This document shows positions 48,314-60,590 of a DNA stretch of 64,000 nt, one piece after another. This DNA comes from Marinicauda salina (GTDB taxonomy: Bacteria > Pseudomonadota > Alphaproteobacteria > Caulobacterales > Maricaulaceae): assembly GCF_003122085.1 (NCBI RefSeq), contig NZ_QEXV01000004.1, positions 186,001-250,000 of the forward strand, read 5' to 3'. The notes under the pieces are model-generated. The model was not told the origin of the DNA. It was given only the letters and a program-made list of their open reading frames with translations, and ran no database searches. The first letter of the stretch is position 1; each line of letters opens with the position of its first letter. The position numbers and the translations under genes are program-made.

Positions 48314-48841
48314 ATGACCAGGACGGGAATCACGATGTCGGCGCTCATCGCGGCGTTCGCGCTCGCCGGTTGCGGGGACGCCGGCGACGCTGCGCCCTCG
48401 TCGGCGGAGCTTCAGTCTGAGGGCGTCGAACCAGAGGCGACCCAGGACGAGGAGACCGGCCTCAGCGCGCTGGATGCGGCCGCGCAGCAGGCCTGCCGGG
48501 CGGAGACCGACGACGCGCTGCTCGCCGCGCTGCCGGACGGGGCGAGCTTCTCCAGCCGCGGTCCCGACGGGGTCGTGGTCGTCGGGTGCGACATGGCCGA
48601 CGGCCGGTTCGTCCGCCGTCTCCGCTCGACCGAGCTTTCCGAGGAGGCGCGCATCGAGTTCGATCTCGCCGTCGCCGATCATATCCGTTTCGGGCTGCGC
48701 CCGGGCGACGATCGCTCCGGGACCGGCGCCTACCGGATGCGCGACGGCCGATTCTGCGCGGTCCAGACCGATGATGCGATCTCGCAGCGCCTGTGCGCCG
48801 CGGCGGCCGAAGCCGCGCCTGACGCCGACGCGGAAGAGTAG
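48314..48841 (+). CDS. Hypothetical lipoprotein
   Basis: A 175-residue predicted lipoprotein. The lipobox LAGC lies near residue 20; an acidic linker (about 25-50) is followed by a small domain with cysteines at about 62, 92, 150 and 161 (QQACRAE, VVGCDMADG, GRFCAVQTD, RLCAAA) that could form two disulfides. No family recognised. GGTCGAGGAGG lies just before the ATG. It is convergent with the lipoprotein coupled to the gsp operon, 19 bases apart. Confidence 0.65.
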   Translation: MTRTGITMSALIAAFALAGCGDAGDAAPSSAELQSEGVEPEATQDEETGLSALDAAAQQACRAETDDALLAALPDGASFSSRGPDGVVVVGCDMADGRFVRRLRSTELSEEARIEFDLAVADHIRFGLRPGDDRSGTGAYRMRDGRFCAVQTDDAISQRLCAAAAEAAPDADAEE

Positions 48842-48860: not shown

Positions 48861-49376
48861 TTACCGGTCGCGCCGCGTCGAGCCGGGCGGCGAGGGCGCG
48901 TCGGTCCGGCAGGAGCGCACGCCGAGCACCGGGGCGACGATCTCGGCGCCGTCGGCCAGCCGGGTGCGCAGAAGCCCCCGTTGCAGGCGCACGCCGGCGG
49001 CCGTCGGCTCGCCGGCTTCGCCCTCGAGCGTGAAGATCAGCCCGTTCTCTGCGTCGCGATAGGTCCGCTCGACCGGCGTTCCCGTAGAGAACGCCGCCGG
49101 TCCGCCATGAGTCGCGATGTTCAGGATACGGGCGTCGTGGAGGATCCGCGCCATCCCGCGCGACTCGTTCTCGAACAGGATGAAGCGGTGCGGCTGGGCG
49201 CGGGTCCAGACGAACAGGCCGCACTCGCCTTCGGCCAGCTGCTGGGGCGGGAGCTGCTCGAGCCGGGTCTCCGCCCCGGCGGCCGGTTCCGCTGGCGCGA
49301 CATTGGGCGCGGCTCCGGGGATCTGCGCGCAGCCTGTGAGCAGAAGTATCGCAGCGAGCGTGGCGGCTGGCTTCAT
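48861..49376 (-). CDS. Lipoprotein coupled to the gsp operon, candidate T2SS accessory factor
   Basis: A 171-residue lipoprotein with lipobox LLTGC (Cys16), a Pro/Ala-rich linker and a globular part (about 45-157) bracketed by Cys52 and Cys156, a likely disulfide. Its ATG overlaps the gspN stop by ATGA, so it is the thirteenth gene of the secretion operon. Outer-membrane lipoproteins serve T2SS as secretin pilotins (GspS/AspS), but I see no sequence match to those families, so a pilotin role is only inferred from position and lipidation. Confidence 0.72.
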   Translation of the reverse strand: MKPAATLAAILLLTGCAQIPGAAPNVAPAEPAAGAETRLEQLPPQQLAEGECGLFVWTRAQPHRFILFENESRGMARILHDARILNIATHGGPAAFSTGTPVERTYRDAENGLIFTLEGEAGEPTAAGVRLQRGLLRTRLADGAEIVAPVLGVRSCRTDAPSPPGSTRRDR

Positions 49377-50104
49377 CGATAGCTCCCTTCGCCTTCGGCG
49401 CGCCAGGCCGCGCCGGTCTCCTCAAAGCCCAGCGCGATCAGCACCGCGATCACGCCCGGCTCCTCAGTGCCGGCCTCCGCCGTCCAGCGGTAGCCGTCGG
49501 CGTCCAGGCGGACCGAGCCGGTCAGATCGAGCGCCGCGCTTGCGCCTTCGAACGTGACCGCGACGGCCTCGCCCGCGCAGCCGAACGCGCCCGTGATCTC
49601 GGGCAGCGCCACATCATAGCGTCCGCCGAGGCGTGCGAGCAGCTGCGTCGAGATCGTTCCCGACGCGCCCTCGCACCGTCCGTCCCGGAAGGTCAATCTC
49701 TCGATCTCGGCGTAGACGCGCTCGGTCTGCGGCGCGGGCAGTTCGGCGAGGCCGGGCAGGCGTCGGATCTCCGCCGCCAGGCTGGCGTCGGTCAGCGTCA
49801 GCGCGCCGGGCCGCGCCACCAGGGTTCCGCGCCCCAGCGCGCTCTCGTCGCGCAGCTCGGCCTCGAGGCGCGCCGCGCCCGTGAGCAAGGGCAGGAAGGC
49901 GAGCGCGAGATCGGCCTCGGCGAAGGGCTGGCCGGCGAATCGCACCCGGTAGGCGCGCGCGTTCCAGACCGGTCCCGTGACGTGGTCGGCCTCGACGCCG
50001 GCCGGCCGCAGGGCCGCGGCGTAGAGCGCGCGGGCGGGCAGGAACGCGACGAGCGCGGCGACAAACACGCCGAGCCCGGCCAGCGCGAGTGCGAGCGGGC
50101 GCAT
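49373..50104 (-). CDS. gspN: Type II secretion protein N
   Basis: A 243-residue inner-membrane protein with an N-terminal anchor (about 3-25) and a beta-rich periplasmic domain. The GPVWNARAYRVRFAG opening and GSVRLDADGYRWTAEAGTEEPG near the end fit T2SN. It is an optional T2SS component of uncertain role. Its ATG shares one base with the gspM stop. Confidence 0.82.
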   Translation of the reverse strand: MRPLALALAGLGVFVAALVAFLPARALYAAALRPAGVEADHVTGPVWNARAYRVRFAGQPFAEADLALAFLPLLTGAARLEAELRDESALGRGTLVARPGALTLTDASLAAEIRRLPGLAELPAPQTERVYAEIERLTFRDGRCEGASGTISTQLLARLGGRYDVALPEITGAFGCAGEAVAVTFEGASAALDLTGSVRLDADGYRWTAEAGTEEPGVIAVLIALGFEETGAAWRAEGEGSYR

Positions 50105-50616
50105 CACGAGCCGGCGCTTCCGGCGCGCGCGAGCACGACCTGGCTGCGCACCCGGCCGTCGCCTTCGCGGTCGAGGCTCAGCCGGGTGACGCGGACATTG
50201 TCGCTGCGGGCGAGATCGAGCAGCAGGCCCATCAGGTCGCCTTCGGCCACCGGATCGGTCCAGACGCTGACCTGGCCGTTCTCGAGCGGCTGGATGCGCG
50301 TGATCGGGACGCCGGTCTCGCGCGCCTTCGAGCCGACCAGCGTGCGCAGCGACGCCGCCGACTGCGGCTCGGCGTCGCCCGCGCCTCTGAGCGCGCGATA
50401 GCGTTCGATCCCGGCGACCAGCTGGAGATGATCCTCGAGCTGGGCCTCGTAGCTCGCGCGCATGGCGTCGCGGTGCGCCAGCGCCGGCGCGAGCATGAAG
50501 CTCCACACCGCCGTGAGCGCGAACAGCGCCGCGGCCGCGGCGATCAGGATCTGCTCGCGCGCGGTTCTCTGCGCCCAGGTCTGGCGCAGCAGGGCGAGGA
50601 GGGATTCCAGCGTCAT
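50104..50616 (-). CDS. gspM: Type II secretion protein M
   Basis: A 170-residue bitopic protein. A short cytosolic part is followed by one membrane helix (about 25-42, ILIAAAAALFALTAVW), a helical linker and a small ferredoxin-like periplasmic domain (GVPITRIQPLENGQVSVWTDPV). GspM pairs with GspL in the inner-membrane platform. ATGA overlap with gspL. Confidence 0.85.
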   Translation of the reverse strand: MTLESLLALLRQTWAQRTAREQILIAAAAALFALTAVWSFMLAPALAHRDAMRASYEAQLEDHLQLVAGIERYRALRGAGDAEPQSAASLRTLVGSKARETGVPITRIQPLENGQVSVWTDPVAEGDLMGLLLDLARSDNVRVTRLSLDREGDGRVRSQVVLARAGSAGS

Positions 50617-51890
50617 GGCCGCCTCACGAGGAAATCGCCGGTGACGCCGCCCGGGCCCTGGCGCGCGCCGCCGTCCTCGATGACGAGCCCCGCCTCGTCG
50701 GCCATCGTCCGGAAGGCCTCGAAGTCGGCGAAATCGGGATAGGTGGCCGTGACCGAAAGTCCGTCGCGCTCGGCGCTGTAGCGGATGGAGTCGATGCGGA
50801 CCTGATCGGCTTCGCCCGCGGCCTCGGCGAGGCGCGCGGCGAGTTCGAGAAAGGCGCTTTCGCCCGGCCCGCCGCCGAGCGCGCGCAGCTTCACGCGCAG
50901 CTGGGCGGCCGGATCGGTGGCGCGCTCGTCGAACTCGGCGCGGTACATCTCCCGGGAAGCTTCGTAATAGCGGTCGGCGCGCTGGGAATAGTAGACGCCC
51001 TCGGCGAAGAACAACGCGCTCGCGCCGATCACGGCCACGCCGAGCAACGCGCCGGCGCGCGTCCACGGCCGGATCATGGAGGCCCAGTCGACGCCGGAGA
51101 CCAGGGCGGTTCCGAAGAAGGCGGGCAGCCGGACGAGGGCGGCTTCCGGCGCGCGGGCGGCCTCGACGCGCAGGTCGGGCGCCGGCTGGCGCTTGACGGC
51201 GACGGGCTCGGCGTCGGGCGCGACCCGCTCGGGCGCGATATCCTCGGTCAGCAGGACGCGCTGCGGATTGAGGCGCGCGCCGAGGGCGGGCAGCACCGCA
51301 TCGGCGAGATCGCGCTCGACGCCGCCGCAGACGGGATCGTCGTCGGGGGCGGCTTCCGCCTCGTCGCCTAGCCGCGCCTGGCGGACGAGATCGCCGCCCC
51401 GGGTCTGGAACAGGACGACGTCGTCATAGGCGGCGACCGTGAGGTCTCCGCCGTGTCCGGACAGGAACATCGCGTCGGGCGCGGCGTAGACCGGCTTGAC
51501 GCCCAGCCCGGCGAGATAATCCCGCCAGCCCTGCTGGACGGGCTTCGCCGCGGCGAACAGCCAGGCCCGGCCGTCGGCGTCGCGCGCGCCCGGGACGACG
51601 TGCTGGGTCTCCAGCGGCGCGGCGAGTTCTTCCTCGACGAGGAAGGGCGCGGCCTGGGCGGCGTCGCGCTCGCTGCGCCCGGGCACGGCGCGATAGCGCG
51701 CGAACATGTCCTGGGCGGGCAGGAGCGCCACCGCGTAGTCGGGCGACTCGCCGTTCGGCCAGTCGGGCGCCTCGCCCGGGCGGATCGCGCCCTCGGCCCG
51801 GATCGCGCCGTCGTCGGAGACGAGCGCCCAGCCGGCCGGCGTCTCGGCGTCGCCTCCGCCGGGGGGCAGCGAGATGACGAGCACGCTCAT
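50613..51890 (-). CDS. gspL: Type II secretion protein L
   Basis: A 425-residue protein. The N-terminal cytosolic actin-like domain (about 1-250; LLPAQDMFARYRAVPGR, AAPFLVEEELAAPLE) recruits GspE. One membrane helix lies near residue 278 (AGALLGVAVIGASALFFAEG), then a periplasmic coiled coil and a ferredoxin-like domain. Order and size agree with GspL. Overlaps gspM (ATGA) and gspK. Confidence 0.87.
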   Translation of the reverse strand: MSVLVISLPPGGGDAETPAGWALVSDDGAIRAEGAIRPGEAPDWPNGESPDYAVALLPAQDMFARYRAVPGRSERDAAQAAPFLVEEELAAPLETQHVVPGARDADGRAWLFAAAKPVQQGWRDYLAGLGVKPVYAAPDAMFLSGHGGDLTVAAYDDVVLFQTRGGDLVRQARLGDEAEAAPDDDPVCGGVERDLADAVLPALGARLNPQRVLLTEDIAPERVAPDAEPVAVKRQPAPDLRVEAARAPEAALVRLPAFFGTALVSGVDWASMIRPWTRAGALLGVAVIGASALFFAEGVYYSQRADRYYEASREMYRAEFDERATDPAAQLRVKLRALGGGPGESAFLELAARLAEAAGEADQVRIDSIRYSAERDGLSVTATYPDFADFEAFRTMADEAGLVIEDGGARQGPGGVTGDFLVRRP

Positions 51891-52906
51891 CGCACCGCTC
51901 CGAAGCGCTGGCTCAGCCGCAGCATGCGCCCGTCCGGCGTCAGCTCGCTGGTCTGGAACAGGCTGAACTCGGTCTCGTCCAGGCGGACCGTCACGTCGAT
52001 CTCGAACCAGCGCGAGCGCAGCGTCACCGCCTCGCGCATGGCGAGCTCGGGCTCCAGCGCGACGATGGCGGGATGCTTGAAGAAGGCCTCGACGTCGTCA
52101 TAGCCCTCCGCGGGGCGCTGCAGCAGCACGGCCTCGGCGTCTCCCACCGTGAGCCGCCCCTGGAACAGGGCCGTCAGCAGCACCGCCTGTTCGAGCTGCA
52201 GCGTGTTGAGATTGAGCGGCGGCTGCCGGGGATCGGGCCGCACGCACACGAAGGGTCGGATCCGCTCGAACAGCTCCGGCGTCATCGCCGGCAGGACGAG
52301 CAGCTCCTCGATCTCGACCATCGGCTGGTTGGCCGCGCGCAGGGGCGGGTCGAAGGCGCGGTAGGCGTCGTCCTCCGCGCCGCCGGGCTCGCGCCAGGCG
52401 TCCTCGTCGATCCAGTCGACGATCTGGGCCTTCAGCGTCTCGATGCGTCCGGGGTCGGCGCCCAGGCGTTCGAGCAGAACCGAGAACATGACCCGCACGT
52501 CCTCGCTCGTCAGGCCCGGCTCCATCCCCGCCGCGCCCTCGGCGCCGTCTCCGGCCATGGCGTTGAGATTGAGGCAGTTATTGCCGTCACGGATATGACC
52601 GGTGAGCGCGCCGTCCTCGATCGGGAAGGTCTGCGGGCCGGCCAGCCAGGGCTCGACCGGGCGCATCACCTCGCGCTCGGCCGGGCCGGAGCGCAGAAGC
52701 ACGCTCTCGGAGAATTCCCGCGCGCCCATGGCGTACCAGTAGGCGGCGTCGCGCCGGTCAACATTCGCGGTTCGGAACAGTGCGAAGCGCGTCTGGTCGA
52801 CCAGCTCGACGGCGATCACCGCCATCAGCGCCGTCACCAGCACCGCGGTGATCAGCGCCGTGCCTTCCTCCCGGCGCCGGGCGAATATGCGCGTCAGCCG
52901 GTTCAT
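51887..52906 (-). CDS. gspK: Type II secretion minor pseudopilin K
   Basis: A 339-residue minor pseudopilin that caps the pseudopilus. A short Arg-rich prepilin leader is followed by EEGTALITAVLVTALMAV, where the usual position-5 Glu of the mature protein is replaced, as in other GspK. The large alpha-helical insert typical of GspK is present (SEDVRVMFSVLLERLGAD...). It overlaps gspJ and gspL by 4 bases each. Confidence 0.9.
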   Translation of the reverse strand: MNRLTRIFARRREEGTALITAVLVTALMAVIAVELVDQTRFALFRTANVDRRDAAYWYAMGAREFSESVLLRSGPAEREVMRPVEPWLAGPQTFPIEDGALTGHIRDGNNCLNLNAMAGDGAEGAAGMEPGLTSEDVRVMFSVLLERLGADPGRIETLKAQIVDWIDEDAWREPGGAEDDAYRAFDPPLRAANQPMVEIEELLVLPAMTPELFERIRPFVCVRPDPRQPPLNLNTLQLEQAVLLTALFQGRLTVGDAEAVLLQRPAEGYDDVEAFFKHPAIVALEPELAMREAVTLRSRWFEIDVTVRLDETEFSLFQTSELTPDGRMLRLSQRFGAVR

Positions 52907-53568
52907 GCGGCGATGTCCGCGGCGGGGCTGAGCAGCACGTGCTCGATCTCGCCGAGGCCCGGCGCGACATAGCGCACGCGGACGCCGCGCGGGGGGGCGG
53001 GGGAGTTCTCGCCGCCCGACGAGACCAGGATGTCGGGGCGCCAGACATTCCCGACGAGGAATTCGAGCCGGAGGTCGCGCGCCGTCTCGAGCACGGTCAT
53101 CGTCGTCGGCTCGGCGTCGCGGGCGGCGTCGGGATAGGTCCAGGCGCGCCGCTTGAGAGTGGTTCCGTCATAGATCCAGGCCACACGCTGCAGGGTCGAG
53201 CGCGGCTGCGCGCCGCCCGGATTGGCCCAGCCCGACCGCGTCAGCACGAGGATCTCGCGGGGTTCGCCGGGCTGCGCCGGCTCCAGCGGGTCGGCGCCGG
53301 AGACGTCGCCGGAGAAGACCCGGCCGTCGACCACGCCCTCCTCGGTGCGGAAGGGGCGCATGACGAGCTGGCCGATATCGTCGCGCAGCAGGACGCGCGC
53401 GCGCTGGACGGCCTCGATGCGTTCGAGCTGCTCGGCGTGGACGTCGCGGCTGCGCACCGCCGTGGTGAGCAGGCCGAGCGCGGCGGTGCTGATCAGCGCG
53501 AAGATCGCCACCGCGACCAGCACCTCGGTCAGCGTGAAGCCGCTGTCTCTGCGAACCGGCCCGGTCAT
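52903..53568 (-). CDS. gspJ: Type II secretion minor pseudopilin J
   Basis: A 221-residue pseudopilin. The cleavage site is RRDSG/FTLTEVLVAVAIFALIS near residue 11, with Glu at mature position 5. The globular domain is beta-rich. With GspI and GspK it forms the tip complex. Coupled by ATGA overlaps on both sides. Confidence 0.92.
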   Translation of the reverse strand: MTGPVRRDSGFTLTEVLVAVAIFALISTAALGLLTTAVRSRDVHAEQLERIEAVQRARVLLRDDIGQLVMRPFRTEEGVVDGRVFSGDVSGADPLEPAQPGEPREILVLTRSGWANPGGAQPRSTLQRVAWIYDGTTLKRRAWTYPDAARDAEPTTMTVLETARDLRLEFLVGNVWRPDILVSSGGENSPAPPRGVRVRYVAPGLGEIEHVLLSPAADIAA

Positions 53569-53933
53569 GGGGTCGCCTTCCGGAAAGTCACGAGTTCGTG
53601 GACGGGCCCGCGCGCGTCGGACAGGGTCAGCGTGACGCGCTCCAGGCCCGGGTCGGGCGTCTCTTCCAGCGTGATCGTCCAGTCGTAGTCCGTTCCCGCG
53701 AGGCTGTAGGTTCCGCTCGTCTCCCTCAGCCTGCGGACCGAGCGCGCCTCGAGGATGAGCGTGTTCATCACGCTCTCCGCGGCGACGGCCGCCAGGGCGC
53801 GTTCGCGCGCGTGAATCGCGCTGCGCCCGGCGGTGGTCATCGCCTGCATCAGGGCGAGGCCGGCCAGCGACACCACCGCCAGGGCGGCGAGCATCTCCAC
53901 GAGCGAGAAGCCGGACTGGCGCGACACGCTCAT
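53565..53933 (-). CDS. gspI: Type II secretion minor pseudopilin I
   Basis: A 122-residue pseudopilin with the prepilin site RQSG/FSLVEMLAALAVVSLA near residue 9 and Glu5. Its small C-terminal domain has YSLAGTDYDWTITLEETPDP. Length is normal for GspI. Coupled to gspH and gspJ. Confidence 0.92.
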   Translation of the reverse strand: MSVSRQSGFSLVEMLAALAVVSLAGLALMQAMTTAGRSAIHARERALAAVAAESVMNTLILEARSVRRLRETSGTYSLAGTDYDWTITLEETPDPGLERVTLTLSDARGPVHELVTFRKATP

Positions 53934-54424
53934 CGCATCGCCTCCGGCGTCTCGATGCTCAGCGCGCCGTCGCCGTCGCGGACGAGGAAGAGATCCCGCC
54001 GGCCGTCCTGGAGCAGAAGCTCGAAGGGCTGATCGACCCCGGTCGGGTCGAACCAGACCAGCGGCGCGTCGCCGGTCTCGCGGCCGGTTTCGCCGTGCAG
54101 GCGCAGCCCGGCGGGCAGGTCATGCGGCGCGAACGCGGGATGGGCCGGATAGTCGCGCCAGTCGCCGTCGGCGTGGCGCAGGAAGAGATATCCCGCGCCG
54201 TCGGGCTCCGGGGCGAAGCCGATCACGCGTCCGGTCACGAGCGCTGTCTCGCGCGCCTCGTGGAAGCGCGCCAGCAGCCGCTCGGCCTCGCGCTCGATCG
54301 GCGCCGGGCGCATCGTGATGCTCATCACGACGGCGCTCGCCATCAGGCCCGCGACGGCGAGCGCGACCAGCATCTCCACCAGGGAGAAGCCCGCCTCTCG
54401 CCGTATCGTCGCCCGAGTGCGCAT
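53930..54424 (-). CDS. gspH: Type II secretion minor pseudopilin H
   Basis: A 164-residue pseudopilin with leader RREAG/FSLVEMLVALAVAGLMA, Glu5, and a beta-sandwich domain (EREAERLLARFHEARETALVTGR after the helix, the usual GspH motif). It joins the pseudopilus shaft to the tip. It starts 18 bases after gspG ends and overlaps gspI by ATGA. Confidence 0.9.
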   Translation of the reverse strand: MRTRATIRREAGFSLVEMLVALAVAGLMASAVVMSITMRPAPIEREAERLLARFHEARETALVTGRVIGFAPEPDGAGYLFLRHADGDWRDYPAHPAFAPHDLPAGLRLHGETGRETGDAPLVWFDPTGVDQPFELLLQDGRRDLFLVRDGDGALSIETPEAMR

Positions 54425-54442: not shown

Positions 54443-54895
54443 TCAGAGATCCCAGTTGCCGATATCGGCGTTGTCGCCTTCGCCGCCGGGCCGGCCGTCG
54501 GCGCCGAGGGAGTAGAGGTCGTAGCGGCCCTGCTCGCCGGGGAAGAGATACTGGTACTCGCGCCCCCACGGGTCCTCGGGCAGGCGTTCGATGAATCCTT
54601 CCTCGGCGTAGCGCGCCGAGATCCGGTCCTCTTCGGGCGGCGCCACCAGCGCCTCGAGCCCCTCGTCGGTCGTCGGGAAGCGCCCGTAGGTCGCGTAGAA
54701 GGTCGTCAGCGAGCTCTCCAGCGTGGCGAGATCTGCGCGCACCTTGTCCTCGCGCGCCGTGCCGAGCAGCGGCAGGACATTGATCACCACCACCGTCGAG
54801 AGCAGTCCGATGATGGCGATGACGACCATCATCTCCGTCAGCGTGAAGCCCGCCTCGGCGGCGCGCCTGCGGGCGAGTGATCTGCAAACGCTCAT
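54443..54895 (-). CDS. gspG: Type II secretion major pseudopilin G
   Basis: A 150-residue major pseudopilin. The leader ends RRAAEAG/FTLTEMMVVIAIIGLLS (Glu5) near residue 17. The domain ends with the calcium-binding loop (DLYSLGADGRPGGEGDNADIGNWDL region). FYATYGRFPTTDEGLEALV is the classic GspG block. It polymerises into the pseudopilus that pushes substrates through GspD. Confidence 0.96.
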   Translation of the reverse strand: MSVCRSLARRRAAEAGFTLTEMMVVIAIIGLLSTVVVINVLPLLGTAREDKVRADLATLESSLTTFYATYGRFPTTDEGLEALVAPPEEDRISARYAEEGFIERLPEDPWGREYQYLFPGEQGRYDLYSLGADGRPGGEGDNADIGNWDL

Positions 54896-54925: not shown

Positions 54926-56155
54926 CTATCCGCCCATGGCCAGCGTGTTGAGACGCAGGATCGGCAGCAGGATCGACAGCACGATCAGCGCGACGATCCC
55001 GCCCATGAAGACGATGACGCCCGGCTCGAGCAGGTTGAGACCGACGCCCACCGCGCTGTCGACCTCGGCCTCGAGGTGATCGGCGGCGCGCGCGAACATC
55101 GCGTCGACGCGGCCCGAGCGCTCGCCGGAGGCGACCATGTACACCACCAGCGGCGGAAACCAGCCCGTCGCGCGCAGCGAGTCCGACAGGCCCGCGCCCT
55201 GCTCGACCTGGTCGATGACGCGGGCGATCCGGTCCTGGAAGGGCGCGTTGGCGCTGGCGCGCCGCGCCGCGCGCAGGGCGTCGGGCAGCACCGCGCCGGC
55301 GGCCACCAGGATCGACATGGTCCGCGCGAAGCGCGCGCTCTCGACCTTGCGGATGAAGCCGCCGAGCCAGGGCAGGGAGAGCAGCGTCGAGTCGATCCGG
55401 CGCTTCACGCCGGGCCGCCGGCCGAGCGCCGACAGTCCGAACACGCCGACAAGCACTGCGAGCGCGATCCAGATCCACCCGGCCTGAAGGAATTCCGACA
55501 GCCCGATCATGGCCCGGGTGATCAGCGGCAGCGTCACGTCGAGGGTGGAGAACTGCTCGGCGATGCGCGGCACGATGAAGACCATCAGCACGCCGACGAC
55601 GAGCAGCGCGACGACCCCCAGAACGGAGGGATAGATCATCGCCACGGAGATGCGCCGCGACAGCGCGCGGGACTTCTCCAGATACTCGGCCAGCCGCTCG
55701 AGCACCTCCGACAGACCGCCCGCGCTTTCGCCGGCGGCGACCATGGCGCGGTAGACCGCCGGGAAGCTGTCGGGATGGGCGGCCATCGCCTCGGACAGGC
55801 GCTCGCCCTCGGTGACGCGCCCGCGCACCGCCATCAGCACGCGCCGGGCCGGGACGCGTTCGGCCTGGTCGGCGATCAGGCCGACGGCCTCCTCGACCGG
55901 CATGCCGGCGCCAACCAGCGTGGCGAGCTGGCGCGTGACGCTCATCAGGTCGGCGGCGTTGAGGCCGGCGGGCCGGAAAAGCCGGGGCAGGGCGAGGCCG
56001 GTGAGCGCCGGGCGCCGGTCGGCGCGATGCAGCTTGAGCGGCGCCATGCGCCGGCGGCGCAGTTCGCGCCGGGCGGCGAGCTCGCTGTCGGCCGAGAGCA
56101 GCCCCTTGGCGCGCTTGCCGGCGGAATCGAGCGCCTCGTACTCAAACGCCGGCAT
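54926..56155 (-). CDS. gspF: Type II secretion inner-membrane protein F
   Basis: A 409-residue platform protein with two T2SSF domains, each followed by membrane helices. FEYEALDSAGKRAKGLLSAD opens it, and MSVTRQLATLVGAGMPVEEA and MVAAGESAGGLSEVLERLAEYLE are family markers, repeated in the second half as ARTMSILVAAGAVLPDALR. Overlaps gspE by 14 bases. Confidence 0.95.
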   Translation of the reverse strand: MPAFEYEALDSAGKRAKGLLSADSELAARRELRRRRMAPLKLHRADRRPALTGLALPRLFRPAGLNAADLMSVTRQLATLVGAGMPVEEAVGLIADQAERVPARRVLMAVRGRVTEGERLSEAMAAHPDSFPAVYRAMVAAGESAGGLSEVLERLAEYLEKSRALSRRISVAMIYPSVLGVVALLVVGVLMVFIVPRIAEQFSTLDVTLPLITRAMIGLSEFLQAGWIWIALAVLVGVFGLSALGRRPGVKRRIDSTLLSLPWLGGFIRKVESARFARTMSILVAAGAVLPDALRAARRASANAPFQDRIARVIDQVEQGAGLSDSLRATGWFPPLVVYMVASGERSGRVDAMFARAADHLEAEVDSAVGVGLNLLEPGVIVFMGGIVALIVLSILLPILRLNTLAMGG

Positions 56156-57635
56156 TGCGCTCTCCGTCCTCGCGGCAGACGCGCAGCACCTCGGCGAGGC
56201 TCGTCTCGCCGGCGAGCGCCAGCTTCATCCCGGCCTCGTACAGCGTGTCGCGGTCCTGGAAGGCGTGGCGGGCGAGATCTGTCTCGCGCGCGTCGTCGTG
56301 GATCAGCGTGCGCATCGCCTCGTCGATCATGACGACCTCGTAGACGCCTCGGCGACCGGCGTAGCCGAGCTGCTTGCAATGCTCGCAGCCGACCGGGCGA
56401 TAAAGCGTGACCGGCTCGTCGGGGCCGACTCCGAGCAGGCCGCGCTCGGCCTCGTCGGGCGCGACCGCCTCCTTGCAGTGATCGCACAGCCGGCGAACGA
56501 GGCGCTGGGCGACGATGGCCGACAGCGTCGAGGCCAGCAAATAGCTCTCCAGCCCCATGTCGCGCAGGCGCGCGATCGCGGCGACGGCCGAGTTCGTGTG
56601 CACCGTCGACAGAACGAGGTGGCCCGTGAGCGAGGCCTGCACGGCGATCTCGGCGGTCTCGACGTCGCGGATCTCGCCGACCATCACCACGTCCGGGTCC
56701 TGGCGCAGGATGGCGCGTAGACCGGCGGCGAAGGTCATGCCGACCTTGGAATTGACCTGGGTCTGGCCGACGCCGGGCACGGCGTATTCTACGGGATCCT
56801 CGACGGTGAGGATGTTGCGGGTCTGGTCGTTGAGCAGGTTGAGCCCGGCGTAGAGCGTGGTCGTCTTGCCCGCCCCGGTCGGGCCGGTGACGAGCACGAT
56901 GCCGTTGGGCTGAGCGAGCGCGCGCCTGAAATCGGCGAGCGCGTCGGGCGCCATGCCGAGCTCGTCGAGGCTGAACTGGGCGCTCTCCTTGTCGAGCAGG
57001 CGCAGCACGACCCGCTCGCCGTAGCGCGAGGGCAGGGTGGAGACGCGCACGTCGATCGCCTTGCCGCCGAGCGAGAGCGACAGCCGGCCGTCCTGGGGAA
57101 TGCGCTTTTCCGCGATGTCGAGGCGGGCCATGACCTTGATGCGGCTGACAAGCGGCGAGGCGACGCGCGGCGACAGCGAGACGGTCTCCTGCAGCACGCC
57201 GTCGACGCGGAAGCGGACCGAGACGCGCTCCTCGAAGGGCTCGACATGGATGTCGGACGCCGACAGGCGGACGGCCTCGGCGATCAGCCCGTTGATGAGG
57301 CGGATGATCGGCGCGTCCGATGCGCTGTCGAGCAGGTCCTCGGTCCTGGGAATTTCATCGATCAGCCGCGACAGGCTTTCGGAGGCGGCCGGGTCGTCCT
57401 CGTCCTCGAGCGCGGCGTCGATGCCGTCGAAGGAGTAAAGCTCCGACAGCGCGCGGTCATAGGCCTTCGCGTCGCACGCCTCGACGGGATGGGCCGCGCC
57501 GGCGGCGCGGCGCGCCTCGACCAGCGCCAGCGGGTCGGCGCCTTCGCGCATCAGGAAGACCGGCGCGTCGCCGGGGCGCACGACGACGCCGCGCTCCTTG
57601 GCGAACCCGTAGGCGATGGGCGTGCGCTCACTCAT
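56142..57635 (-). CDS. gspE: Type II secretion ATPase E
   Basis: A 497-residue hexameric ATPase. Walker A GPTGAGKTTTLYAGL (near residue 250), Asp box and Walker B in ILRQDPDVVMVGEIRDVETAE, the His box and the zinc-binding CDHCKEAV..CEHCKQLGYAGR tetracysteine module characteristic of GspE are all present. It powers pseudopilus assembly, docked on GspL and GspF. Overlaps gspD by 8 bases. Confidence 0.97.
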   Translation of the reverse strand: MSERTPIAYGFAKERGVVVRPGDAPVFLMREGADPLALVEARRAAGAAHPVEACDAKAYDRALSELYSFDGIDAALEDEDDPAASESLSRLIDEIPRTEDLLDSASDAPIIRLINGLIAEAVRLSASDIHVEPFEERVSVRFRVDGVLQETVSLSPRVASPLVSRIKVMARLDIAEKRIPQDGRLSLSLGGKAIDVRVSTLPSRYGERVVLRLLDKESAQFSLDELGMAPDALADFRRALAQPNGIVLVTGPTGAGKTTTLYAGLNLLNDQTRNILTVEDPVEYAVPGVGQTQVNSKVGMTFAAGLRAILRQDPDVVMVGEIRDVETAEIAVQASLTGHLVLSTVHTNSAVAAIARLRDMGLESYLLASTLSAIVAQRLVRRLCDHCKEAVAPDEAERGLLGVGPDEPVTLYRPVGCEHCKQLGYAGRRGVYEVVMIDEAMRTLIHDDARETDLARHAFQDRDTLYEAGMKLALAGETSLAEVLRVCREDGERNAGV

Positions 57636-59652
57636 CCGCAGCCTCGTCGGCGCGATCGGGAAGCGCCCGGTCGAACGGCGCCTCGCCGTCCATCATCATA
57701 TCGACGATGTCCTCGAGGCTCGAGCTGCGCCCGCGGGTCGCCGCCCGCTGCGCCGCCGTCATCGACGTGTAGTTCTGGCGGGTCACCTCGCGCATGTCCT
57801 CGGCCGAGCGGATGATCTGCGGGCGGATGAACACCATCAGGTTGCGCCGCTGCTCGCTCTGGCTCTCGTTGCGGAACAGCCGGCCCACGCCGGGGATGTC
57901 GCCGAGCACGGGCACGGAATCGTCGCTGAACTGCTGATCGTTCTCGATCAGGCCGCCGAGCACGATGATCTCGCCGTCGTCGGCGAGCACCGTGGTCTGG
58001 ATCTCGCGCTGGTTGGTGATCAGCTCCTGGAAGCTGGCGCTGACCGGTCCGGCGATCGAGGAGACCTCCTGGCGGATCGTCAGGCGGATCGTGTCGCCCT
58101 CGTTGATCTGGGGCGTCACGTCGAGCTGGACCCCGACCTCCTGGCGCTCGATCGTGCGGAACGGGTTGGTGTTGTTCGATCCGAGCGCCTCGCCGGTCGT
58201 GATCGGGATCTGCTGGCCGACGAGGATCGAGGCCTCCTCGTTGTCGAGCACCGTCACCGACGGCTTCGAGAGCACGTTGGAGTCGGTGTCCGTCTCGAGC
58301 GCGTTGAGGATGAGGCCGAACAGCGTGCCGTCGTCCGACTGGCCGCCGACGCCGAGCACGCCGCCGCGGCTGCCGAGCAGCGAGGCGATCGCGACCTGGC
58401 GCAGCGAGATCGAGCCGGTCGCGCCCTCATCGTCCTCGTCGACCTCGGCGAGGGCGCCGGTGAGCGCGAGCAGGTCGACATTATTGCCGCCGAAGCGGGA
58501 GTAGGAGAACGGCACCGCGTCGTCGCCGTCGCCGGCGACGAGGTACTGGACGCCGAGCTCGCGGGCGGCGGTGTCGGAGATCTCCACGATGATCGCCTCG
58601 ATCATCACCTGCGGCCGGCGGATGTCGAGCCGGCCGATGACGAGATCGAGCTCGCGCAGCGTGTCCGGGTCGCCGTTGACGATGATCGCGTTGGTCGCGC
58701 GGTGGAAGGCGATCGACGTGCGCGGGTCGGACGAGTCTCCGCCCTGGCCGGGATCGATGAGCTGGGCGAACTGTTCGAGGATCGGCAGCAGCTGGGCGCC
58801 GTCGGCGTGGTTGAGATAGATCACGCGGAAGGTCTGGCTCGAGCGGCTGACCGCATCGACCCGGCGCGCCAGCGAGATCATTTCCGCGACTTCGTCGGCG
58901 TCGCCGCGCAGCAGGATCGAGTTCGACGCCGGCACCGCGGCGATGGTCACGCCGTAGCGGCTGGAGTCCTCGCCGGCGATCGTGCTTGCGCGCATGCGCT
59001 CGAGGATGCGGCTCATCTCCTCGGCGGAGACGTTCTCCAGCGCGACCATCTCGACGACCGACGTGTCGCGGTCCATCGCGCGCAGCACGTCTTCGATCGC
59101 GTCGACGTTCGAGCTGTAATCGACGATCACGACGAGATTGCCCGTATCCGAGGCGTTCACCGCGCCCGAGGGGCTGACGAGCGGCCCGACCGAGCGGATC
59201 GCCTCGCGCGCGCCGATATTCCCCAGCCGGACGACCGAGGTGAGGAAGACGTCGTCCCCGCGCTCGCCCCGGCTCGGGGCGCCGGTGCGCGCGCCTTCCT
59301 GCTCGGGCACGATCTGGAACACGCCCGGCGCCGTGCGGACGGCGGCGAAGCCGTGCGTGCGCAGCGTCGACAGGAAAACCTGGAACACCTCGGCCTCGCT
59401 CAATGCGCTCTGCGAGGTGATCGTGACCGTGCCGCGGACCTCCGGATCCACGATGAAGGTATAGCCGGTCACGATGGACACGTCGTCGATGAAGGCCTGG
59501 ATGTCGGCGTTGCGGAAATTCAGCGTGTGGCCGGTCTCGGTTTCGGCCTGGACGAGCGCGGCGCGGGCCGGCGAAGCCGTCGGGCCGAAGACCGTCGATG
59601 CGACGAGGAGCAGCAGCGCGCCGCCCGTCCGGGCGAGAAGTTGGATCGTCAT
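57628..59652 (-). CDS. gspD: Type II secretion secretin D
   Basis: A 674-residue outer-membrane secretin with a cleavable signal peptide (about 1-30). N0 (LNFRNADIQAFIDDVSIVTGYTF) and the repeated N1-N3 domains (NIGAREAIRSVGPLVSPSG, TNAIIVNGDPDTLRELDLVI) precede the beta-barrel core (LSKPSVTVLDNEEASILVGQ, GVQLDVTPQINEGDTIRLTI, GVGRLFRNESQSEQRRNLMVF). Ends with an acidic tail that could bind a pilotin. Overlaps gspC by 4 bases. Confidence 0.96.
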   Translation of the reverse strand: MTIQLLARTGGALLLLVASTVFGPTASPARAALVQAETETGHTLNFRNADIQAFIDDVSIVTGYTFIVDPEVRGTVTITSQSALSEAEVFQVFLSTLRTHGFAAVRTAPGVFQIVPEQEGARTGAPSRGERGDDVFLTSVVRLGNIGAREAIRSVGPLVSPSGAVNASDTGNLVVIVDYSSNVDAIEDVLRAMDRDTSVVEMVALENVSAEEMSRILERMRASTIAGEDSSRYGVTIAAVPASNSILLRGDADEVAEMISLARRVDAVSRSSQTFRVIYLNHADGAQLLPILEQFAQLIDPGQGGDSSDPRTSIAFHRATNAIIVNGDPDTLRELDLVIGRLDIRRPQVMIEAIIVEISDTAARELGVQYLVAGDGDDAVPFSYSRFGGNNVDLLALTGALAEVDEDDEGATGSISLRQVAIASLLGSRGGVLGVGGQSDDGTLFGLILNALETDTDSNVLSKPSVTVLDNEEASILVGQQIPITTGEALGSNNTNPFRTIERQEVGVQLDVTPQINEGDTIRLTIRQEVSSIAGPVSASFQELITNQREIQTTVLADDGEIIVLGGLIENDQQFSDDSVPVLGDIPGVGRLFRNESQSEQRRNLMVFIRPQIIRSAEDMREVTRQNYTSMTAAQRAATRGRSSSLEDIVDMMMDGEAPFDRALPDRADEAADE

Positions 59653-60590
59653 CTCAAGCGTACCTCGATTGTCTGGCTCTCGCCGTCGCGCAGGACGGTG
59701 AAGCGCGCCTCGGAGGCCTCGGCGAGCTCCTCCAGAACCTCCAGGGTGTTGACCGAGCCCGCAAGGGCGCGGCCATTGACGGACGTGATGATGTCGCCGG
59801 TTCGGAGCCCGGTCGCGTCCAGCAGGGCCGGATCGCTCTCGGCGAGGATGCGGTAGCCGCGCGCGTCGGCGGTTTCCTCGACCGGGGCCAGGCGCAAGCC
59901 GCGGACCCAGTCCTCCTCGCTCAGCCCGCCCGCCGCGCGCGGTCCCGGCGCACGGGATTCCGCCTCTGCGGCTGGCGGCTCGGCGCCGGGCTGCAGGAAG
60001 GATGTGCTGCGGGCCGATTGCTCGCGCAGGAACAGGCTCTCGCGATTGCCGCGCCGATTGATGATGACGCGGTCGGCGTAGACGGCCTCGAGCGTGACGT
60101 TCGGCGCGATCTCGCCGCCGATCGCCACGGTGCGCTGGCCCTCCTGCGGGGTCTGGACGACCGCCGCGCCGGATTGCGGGGTCGGGCCGCGGCGCACGCC
60201 CCGAAGCGTGAGATCGAGCTGGGTCTCGGGCGCGGACTCCACCGGGTCGACCTCCGCTTCGAACGCGGCCGACGCGAACAGGCGGCCCTCGGCCAGGATC
60301 GTCAGGTCGGTCGGCGCCTCGTCGGTCGCCAGGCGCGCGGAGGGCGCGACCATGTCGGCCGATAGGCGGTCGATCTCCCCGCCATAGATCCCGAACCAGA
60401 CGGCGCGGGCCAGCAGCATGGCGATGACCGCGACCAGGGCGAGCTCGACCGCGCCACGGGCCAGCGCCGTGAAACGGCGCGGCGCTCCGCGGCGGTTTTG
60501 TGTCCGCCCCGTGTCAGCGGCGATGCGCGCCGTCGCCTGCTCGTCTCTCCTCAGCGCCTTCAGTTTCGCCTCCAGGCGTTCCGGACGCAC
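59649..60590 (-). CDS. gspC: Type II secretion protein C
   Basis: A 313-residue inner-membrane protein linking the platform to the secretin. One membrane helix (about 48-68) is followed by the homology region (LFASAAFEAEVDPVESAPETQLDLTLRGV) and a C-terminal PDZ domain (LDATGLRTGDIITSVNGRALAG). The only plausible start is GTG 60590. A GCGGGCCC hairpin directly before it may mask translation. First gene of the gsp set. Confidence 0.88.
   Translation of the reverse strand: MRPERLEAKLKALRRDEQATARIAADTGRTQNRRGAPRRFTALARGAVELALVAVIAMLLARAVWFGIYGGEIDRLSADMVAPSARLATDEAPTDLTILAEGRLFASAAFEAEVDPVESAPETQLDLTLRGVRRGPTPQSGAAVVQTPQEGQRTVAIGGEIAPNVTLEAVYADRVIINRRGNRESLFLREQSARSTSFLQPGAEPPAAEAESRAPGPRAAGGLSEEDWVRGLRLAPVEETADARGYRILAESDPALLDATGLRTGDIITSVNGRALAGSVNTLEVLEELAEASEARFTVLRDGESQTIEVRLR

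Follow-up and report, generated by a model that had tools for sequence, protein, structure and literature searches.

The type II secretion system (T2SS) gene cluster of Marinicauda salina ends with a gene for a small lipoprotein, here called lip, which is a real and conserved component of the T2SS in this lineage. In the reading we prefer, to which we give a probability of about 0.5, Lip would be a lineage-specific outer-membrane lipoprotein of the T2SS that serves the secretin GspD by helping to assemble, deliver or stabilise the channel and acts beside GspC and GspN. Its small and probably disulphide-closed β-barrel would face the periplasm, and we infer a direct contact with GspD and a pilotin-like role. 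Lip most probably belongs to the secretin side of the system; a function as a pilotin is hypothetical, and so is a role together with GspN.

The window, a stretch of 64,000 nucleotides of the Marinicauda salina genome, contains a complete gspC-gspN cluster, and lip is its last gene (Table 1). A preliminary description of this DNA had read lip as the gene of a lipoprotein with two further cysteines, coupled to gspN by an ATGA overlap. The open reading frame is real, with the tabulated strand, length and cysteine positions, and the overlap is confirmed by the coordinates of the lip start codon (49376-49374) and the gspN stop codon (49375-49373). It was also fair to say that most genes of the operon use such a junction, as the coordinates give four-nucleotide overlaps at seven of the twelve junctions between gspC and lip (C/D, H/I, I/J, J/K, K/L, L/M and N/lip). 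No gspS or gspO had been seen in the window, and this agrees with a search of the whole Marinicauda salina genome, in which the profiles PF09691 (PulS-OutS pilotins), PF16549 (AspS pilotins) and PF06750 had no match. Three loci of the prepilin peptidase type (PF01478) are present on a contig other than that of the window (G000:C1:82061, 662331 and 883878); since PF06750 matches none of them, GspO may lack its usual N-terminal domain here. Convergent with lip, a second small lipoprotein is predicted from an open reading frame on the plus strand (48314-48841), which starts with ATG and carries a lipobox-like LAGC motif.

Table 1. Coordinates of lip and the gsp genes in the window
Gene	Position	Strand	Remarks
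lip	48861..49376	minus	171 aa; signal peptide with lipobox Cys16, low-confidence tether, predicted β-barrel domain ~49-158, Cys52 and Cys156
gspN	49373..50104	minus	243 aa, T2SSN; PF01203, E 2.1e-21 (the scan used the longer ORF 49373-50506)
gspM	50104..50616	minus	170-aa seed; profile matches 96/106 operon loci
gspL	50613..51890	minus	
gspK	51887..52906	minus	
gspJ	52903..53568	minus	name from operon order and sequence
gspI	53565..53933	minus	name from operon order and sequence
gspH	53930..54424	minus	name from operon order and sequence
gspG	54443..54895	minus	
gspF	54926..56155	minus	name from operon order and sequence
gspE	56142..57635	minus	name from operon order and sequence
gspD	57628..59652	minus	secretin; 60-residue C-terminal tail with short helix-like motif SSLEDIVDMMM
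gspC	59649..60590	minus	PDZ type

The assignment of Lip to the T2SS is based on its distribution. A profile search detected lip in 77 of 130 genomes of the order, all at least 90% complete and Marinicauda salina among them, with one match each. GspK passed its cut-off in 96 of these 130 genomes; all 77 lip-positive genomes belong to these, and lip was found in none of the 34 genomes without GspK, which identifies it as a T2SS component. Furthermore, lip adjoins gsp genes in all 77 genomes, in six of them within one half of a split cluster (gspC-D-N-lip). The suggestion that lip encodes a secretion accessory is therefore well supported by its occurrence with the T2SS only, its single copy in 77 genomes and its membership in the operon. 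The T2SS can do without Lip, since 19 of the 96 GspK-positive genomes lack it. Beyond the order, an even draw across the class yielded lip in at least 3 of 289 genomes, two of the order of the window and a third outside it (G209), where the gsp cluster ends with gspN and then lip; this search considered no more than 13 candidates in each genome, so that distant members may escape it.

Judged by sequence comparison, the family is unnamed in Pfam, NCBIfam and PADLOC: the window protein had no match in any of the three at E 1, and a Lip profile gave nothing credible among PDB sequences (best E 1.2). Weak matches of 5 of 30 homologues to DUF6491 (best E 0.011) and scattered matches among the 30 to NCBIfam lipoprotein families (best E 0.0016) were taken as noise. 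In an initial search, homologues were found in 39 of 61 genomes including Marinicauda salina, and an alignment of 30 homologues, the window protein included, has four invariant residues, L42, C52, P149 and C156 (window numbering). Among named genomes, a scan with the single protein gave no match and a second scan gave 43 loci, in Hyphomonas, Henriciella, Ponticaulis, Marinicauda, Woodsholea, Robiginitomaculum and Hellea among others. Thirty-nine of these loci have the order N-lip, two M-lip and one D-lip-E, and the remaining locus is a second copy that stands alone; as some of these genomes are also part of the order set, the two counts are not additive.

Across the 78 homologues (the 77 of the order and that of G209), a lipobox was recognised by script in 70 and by eye in two more, whereas six (G007, G050, G371, G395, G407 and G408) have none by either approach; forms with an ordinary signal peptide thus occur, and the presence of the lipobox changes four times on a GspE tree. 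Among the 70 script-detected lipobox proteins, position +2 is alanine or serine in 50, with alanine the commonest residue (40/70), and position +3 is serine or threonine in 63. The residues after the lipidated cysteine fit the rules of Lol-type sorting, and the presumed location of Lip at the outer membrane is based on them. In a metagenome-assembled Hellea sp. genome (G437), a normal lip copy follows gspN in the cluster, and a second copy of the Lip domain, encoded outside the gsp cluster (L073, 3962-5176), carries a C-terminal SPOR domain (PF05036, E 1.8e-9). SPOR domains bind peptidoglycan, and this copy at least should therefore face the periplasm.

The position of lip within the cluster is highly conserved. 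Operon regions were mapped with iterated profiles at 106 loci, which comprise those of the 96 GspK-positive genomes and ten extra loci. A check named in the preliminary description was whether lip always adjoins gspN in relatives; it does so in 71 of the 77 genomes of the order, 65 with full, slightly permuted or contig-cut clusters and six with split ones; in the other six (G011, G026, G044, G349, G382 and G422), lip is kept at the end of the gsp operon, there after gspM. Five of these six lack gspN by profile, and that of G044 is encoded on another contig (192.5 bits). With G209 included, 72 of 78 homologues follow gspN, and start and stop codons overlap by four nucleotides at 46 of the 72 junctions (40 ATGA, 4 GTGA and 2 TTGA, with putative starts), which is more than chance. 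A 551-aa open frame in G020, considered as a fusion of Lip and GspN, merely overlaps gspN. The cluster was also seen in metagenome-assembled genomes labelled Acidobacteria and Sulfopaludibacter (L046 and L047), the record name of L047 looking wrong.

Three rearrangements separate parts of the cluster from each other. In six genomes of one genus, gspC-D-N-lip is encoded in one place and gspE-F-G-H-I-J-K-L-M in a distant one (L109, L114, L118, L173, L180, L189 and L201-L206); the open reading frames of the C-D-N-lip part are a few bases apart or overlap, and the ATGA overlap is kept in the one locus that was read. This order equals the arrangement described in the cited part of the GspN literature (PMC12802150), with lip added. 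In G436, gspC, gspD and lip are followed by about 1.3 kb with one open reading frame and then by gspE to gspN, so that gspN lies at the far end. The intervening frame has a match to HTH_32 below the cut-off (E 1.6e-5) and is transposase-like by our own reading; a PF01478 peptidase is encoded just upstream of gspC at this locus (L219, G436:C7:1-20000). In the third case, G044, lip ends an operon from gspC to gspM, and the single gspN detected is on another contig. Isolated gspN genes with no other gsp gene found nearby were detected in G044 (L207), G408 (L208) and G350 (L209), of which G408 and G350 possess the unlinked gene as a second gspN besides the operon copy; since such copies exist, the pattern of G044 may have arisen by loss of the operon gspN, with the unlinked copy left. 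In all three rearrangements, which are the only cases of this evidence, lip stays with gspC and gspD.

These gene orders bear on the idea that Lip works with GspN in the export of surface lipoproteins by the T2SS, in which GspN, an AsmA-like protein with a β-taco fold, would shield the acyl chains and Lip would receive or pass them on at the outer membrane. According to the available text of PMC12802150, GspN is needed for surface transport of T2SS-dependent lipoproteins in Acinetobacter and Klebsiella, and its authors suggest a hand-off and further factors or helpers. The idea is also favoured by the adjacency and overlap of the two genes, by Lip being the best co-evolving partner of GspN (0.293) and by their co-occurrence in the 96 genomes (Fisher p 4e-4, a value that ignores kinship). 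However, the presence of lip does not depend on gspN, given the five lip-positive genomes without gspN by profile and the one with gspN on another contig; conversely, 11 of the 96 GspK-positive genomes encode gspN without lip, and eight have neither gene. A quick tree of GspE from 94 genomes requires six changes for lip and six for gspN, and lip without gspN arises on it four times. Among independent pairs with lip in one member only, gspN differs in the same direction in a mean of 0.6 out of 4, too few pairs for significance. G436, with lip beside gspD and gspN at the opposite end, also speaks against it, as does Caulobacter crescentus, whose lipoprotein ElpS does not need the T2SS to reach the surface according to the cited part of PMC2996285. 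The published gsp cluster of this bacterium ends with gspN and an oppositely oriented gspO (PMC2996285, same part). Since lip without gspN arises four times and the co-occurrence is significant only when kinship is left uncorrected, lip and gspN are neighbours and not mutually dependent. An obligate partnership with GspN, our first choice, was dropped on the gene orders and the GspE tree, and the wider partnership outlined above seems doubtful to us.

A role on the side of GspD is further suggested by co-evolution, which was assessed with a distance-matrix analysis of the mirror-tree type in 66 of 69 complete genomes (G371, G408 and G050 were dropped for gaps, and G209 was left out). As a correlation of distances, this signal is sensitive to alignment and rate. 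The partial correlation with Lip was highest for GspD (0.386), followed by GspF (0.330, close to GspD in this full-length test), GspN, GspC (0.144) and GspL (0.109); the remaining Gsp proteins had values around zero or negative ones, with GspK lowest at -0.234. In turn, Lip is the best partner of GspD, ahead of GspC (0.309), whose contact with GspD is established (PMC10128026, in part). GspD was the first partner of Lip in 142 of 200 subsamples, GspF in 39 and GspN in 19, and it also remained first when 95 random columns per family were used (0.328, compared with 0.162 for GspF and 0.151 for GspN). A separate run with 55 genomes, from which short rows and with them the genome of the window were absent, gave 0.437 for GspD. 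When GspD was divided into its parts, with E-M as control set, the correlation was 0.468 for N1-N2, 0.337 for the secretin domain, 0.273 for N0, 0.212 for the tail and 0.082 for N3. Because N1-N2 and the secretin domain score higher than the tail, a stabiliser that grips the body of the channel is as likely as a pilotin that binds the tail.

The latter, a special case of the preferred secretin-side reading, would bind the C-terminal tail of GspD and use the Lol pathway to bring the secretin to the outer membrane. Lip resembles such pilotins as a small lipoprotein with alanine or serine at +2 in 50 of 70 homologues, it is linked to the secretin by gene order and co-evolution, and the GspS and AspS families are absent from the Marinicauda salina genome. 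Pilotins are, moreover, convergent, with AspS structurally unrelated to PulS/OutS (PMC3542185, in the part cited). The helix pattern of the GspD tail is conserved in 59 of 74 lip-positive genomes, but it is likewise present in all 18 tails from lip-negative genomes (one further lip-negative genome has no gspD in reach), and between close relatives the tails are very similar whether or not lip is present. The tail also gives the second-weakest co-evolution signal within GspD, far below that of N1-N2, and an Ala-Phe dipeptide, proposed in the cited part of PMC6532946 as a signature of pilotin-dependent secretins, occurs in only 5 of 74 tails of lip-positive genomes. Structure modelling with the GspD tail, a check named in the preliminary description, did not dock the tail with confidence: tethered to the barrel with a natural intergenic sequence (L057), it had a pLDDT of 47-56 with the barrel mostly above 90, a negative result from a weak test that had no own tail alignment (the window GspD tail was left out as misaligned) and no control run, and that returned neither contacts nor coordinates. 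Six of 78 homologues without a lipobox likewise argue against a classical pilotin, which we consider unlikely. The earlier proposal that Lip is the pilotin of this lineage is thus half supported. It is favoured by the persistence of lip beside the secretin genes where clusters are rearranged and by the first rank of GspD among the co-evolving partners; it is weakened by GspD tails that look alike without lip, by the homologues without a lipobox, by the GspK-positive genomes without the gene and by a tethered tail that did not dock with confidence.

The predicted fold sets Lip apart from the pilotins it resembles in size and genomic context. AlphaFold2 modelled Lip from 38 sequences as an eight-stranded β-barrel with no helix of four or more residues, at an overall pLDDT of 84; of the twelve ten-residue blocks between residues 41 and 160, eleven scored 92-97 and one 78. 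In the model, Cys52 lies at the start of the first strand and Cys156 at the end of the last. A disulphide between these two invariant cysteines would thus close the barrel and is probably formed. Foldseek gave no match to the model at E 0.001, the best being a designed retro-aldolase (0.04), and the matches listed by a second structure comparison were mainly designed barrels and avidins with Z up to 8.3, values that are common for models without a clear match. Avidin-like eight-stranded barrels reached Z 6.2-8.3 among the matches listed, at 5-13% identity to Lip, and imply no function. An identification by fold was rejected, as the searches yield a common barrel arrangement.

Several known secretin accessories can be compared with this model. 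GspS or PulS/OutS proteins (PF09691) are, like Lip, small lipoproteins linked to the T2SS secretin, but their published structure is a four-helix bundle (PMC3542185, in part) and that of Lip is modelled as all-β. AspS/EpsS (PF16549) shares with Lip the small size, the lipid anchor, a conserved disulphide (inferred for Lip) and an occurrence where PulS/OutS is absent, whereas it combines helices with strands (PMC3542185, same part). At E 1, none of 30 Lip members matched PF09691 or PF16549. The type III pilotins MxiM and YscW/ExsB are β-rich lipoproteins that serve a secretin, as Lip may do; they were not among the Pfam matches of the 30 members at E 1, and the 50 structural matches listed included no known pilotin structure, which excludes nothing. 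GspN (PF01203) is, like Lip, a T2SS accessory of variable presence and both its neighbour and co-evolving partner; it is a protein separate from Lip, with a predicted β-taco and one inner-membrane helix (PMC12802150, in part). GspB/OutB is another secretin accessory, which binds the N-terminal domain of GspD and peptidoglycan according to the cited part of PMC10128026, but it is located in the inner membrane; Lip has no such Pfam match, and SPOR is found only in a rare Lip paralogue. We regard it as improbable that Lip represents a new and structurally unrelated class of pilotin or secretin chaperone, a disulphide-closed β-barrel lipoprotein that would hold GspD not by the tail but by its periplasmic N1-N2 or secretin region, and that would couple the assembly of the channel in alphaproteobacteria to the GspN-dependent export of lipoproteins.

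Lip might also be cargo or a periplasmic guard, that is, a T2SS substrate itself or an inhibitor that restrains a hydrolytic substrate before export. In Caulobacter, the release of ElpS, a lipoprotein whose gene adjoins the gsp genes, depends on the T2SS (PMC2996285, in part); Lip forms with an ordinary signal peptide exist, and one copy is linked to the periplasm by its fusion to SPOR. It would be unusual for cargo to be a single-copy member of the operon, to co-evolve with the channel and to be encoded between gspD and gspE, as Lip is in one genome, and the commonest +2 residue of Lip is alanine and not part of the G/S or N/D motif given for GspN-dependent lipoproteins in the cited part of PMC12802150. 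We consider this explanation very unlikely and favour a role of Lip on the side of the secretin.

The delivery of secretins to the outer membrane is understood for pilotins of the PulS/OutS and AspS classes. Among the titles listed for the open-access literature, none concerned a pilotin for an alphaproteobacterial T2SS. The relation of lip and gspN is of interest since the surface transport of T2SS-dependent lipoproteins is now known to require GspN, and Lip is one candidate for the additional factor suggested by the authors of the GspN study (PMC12802150, in part). For the question of the alphaproteobacterial pilotin, Lip offers a conserved, single-copy and secretin-linked candidate, which is available in the cultured genera Hyphomonas, Henriciella, Ponticaulis, Marinicauda and Woodsholea.
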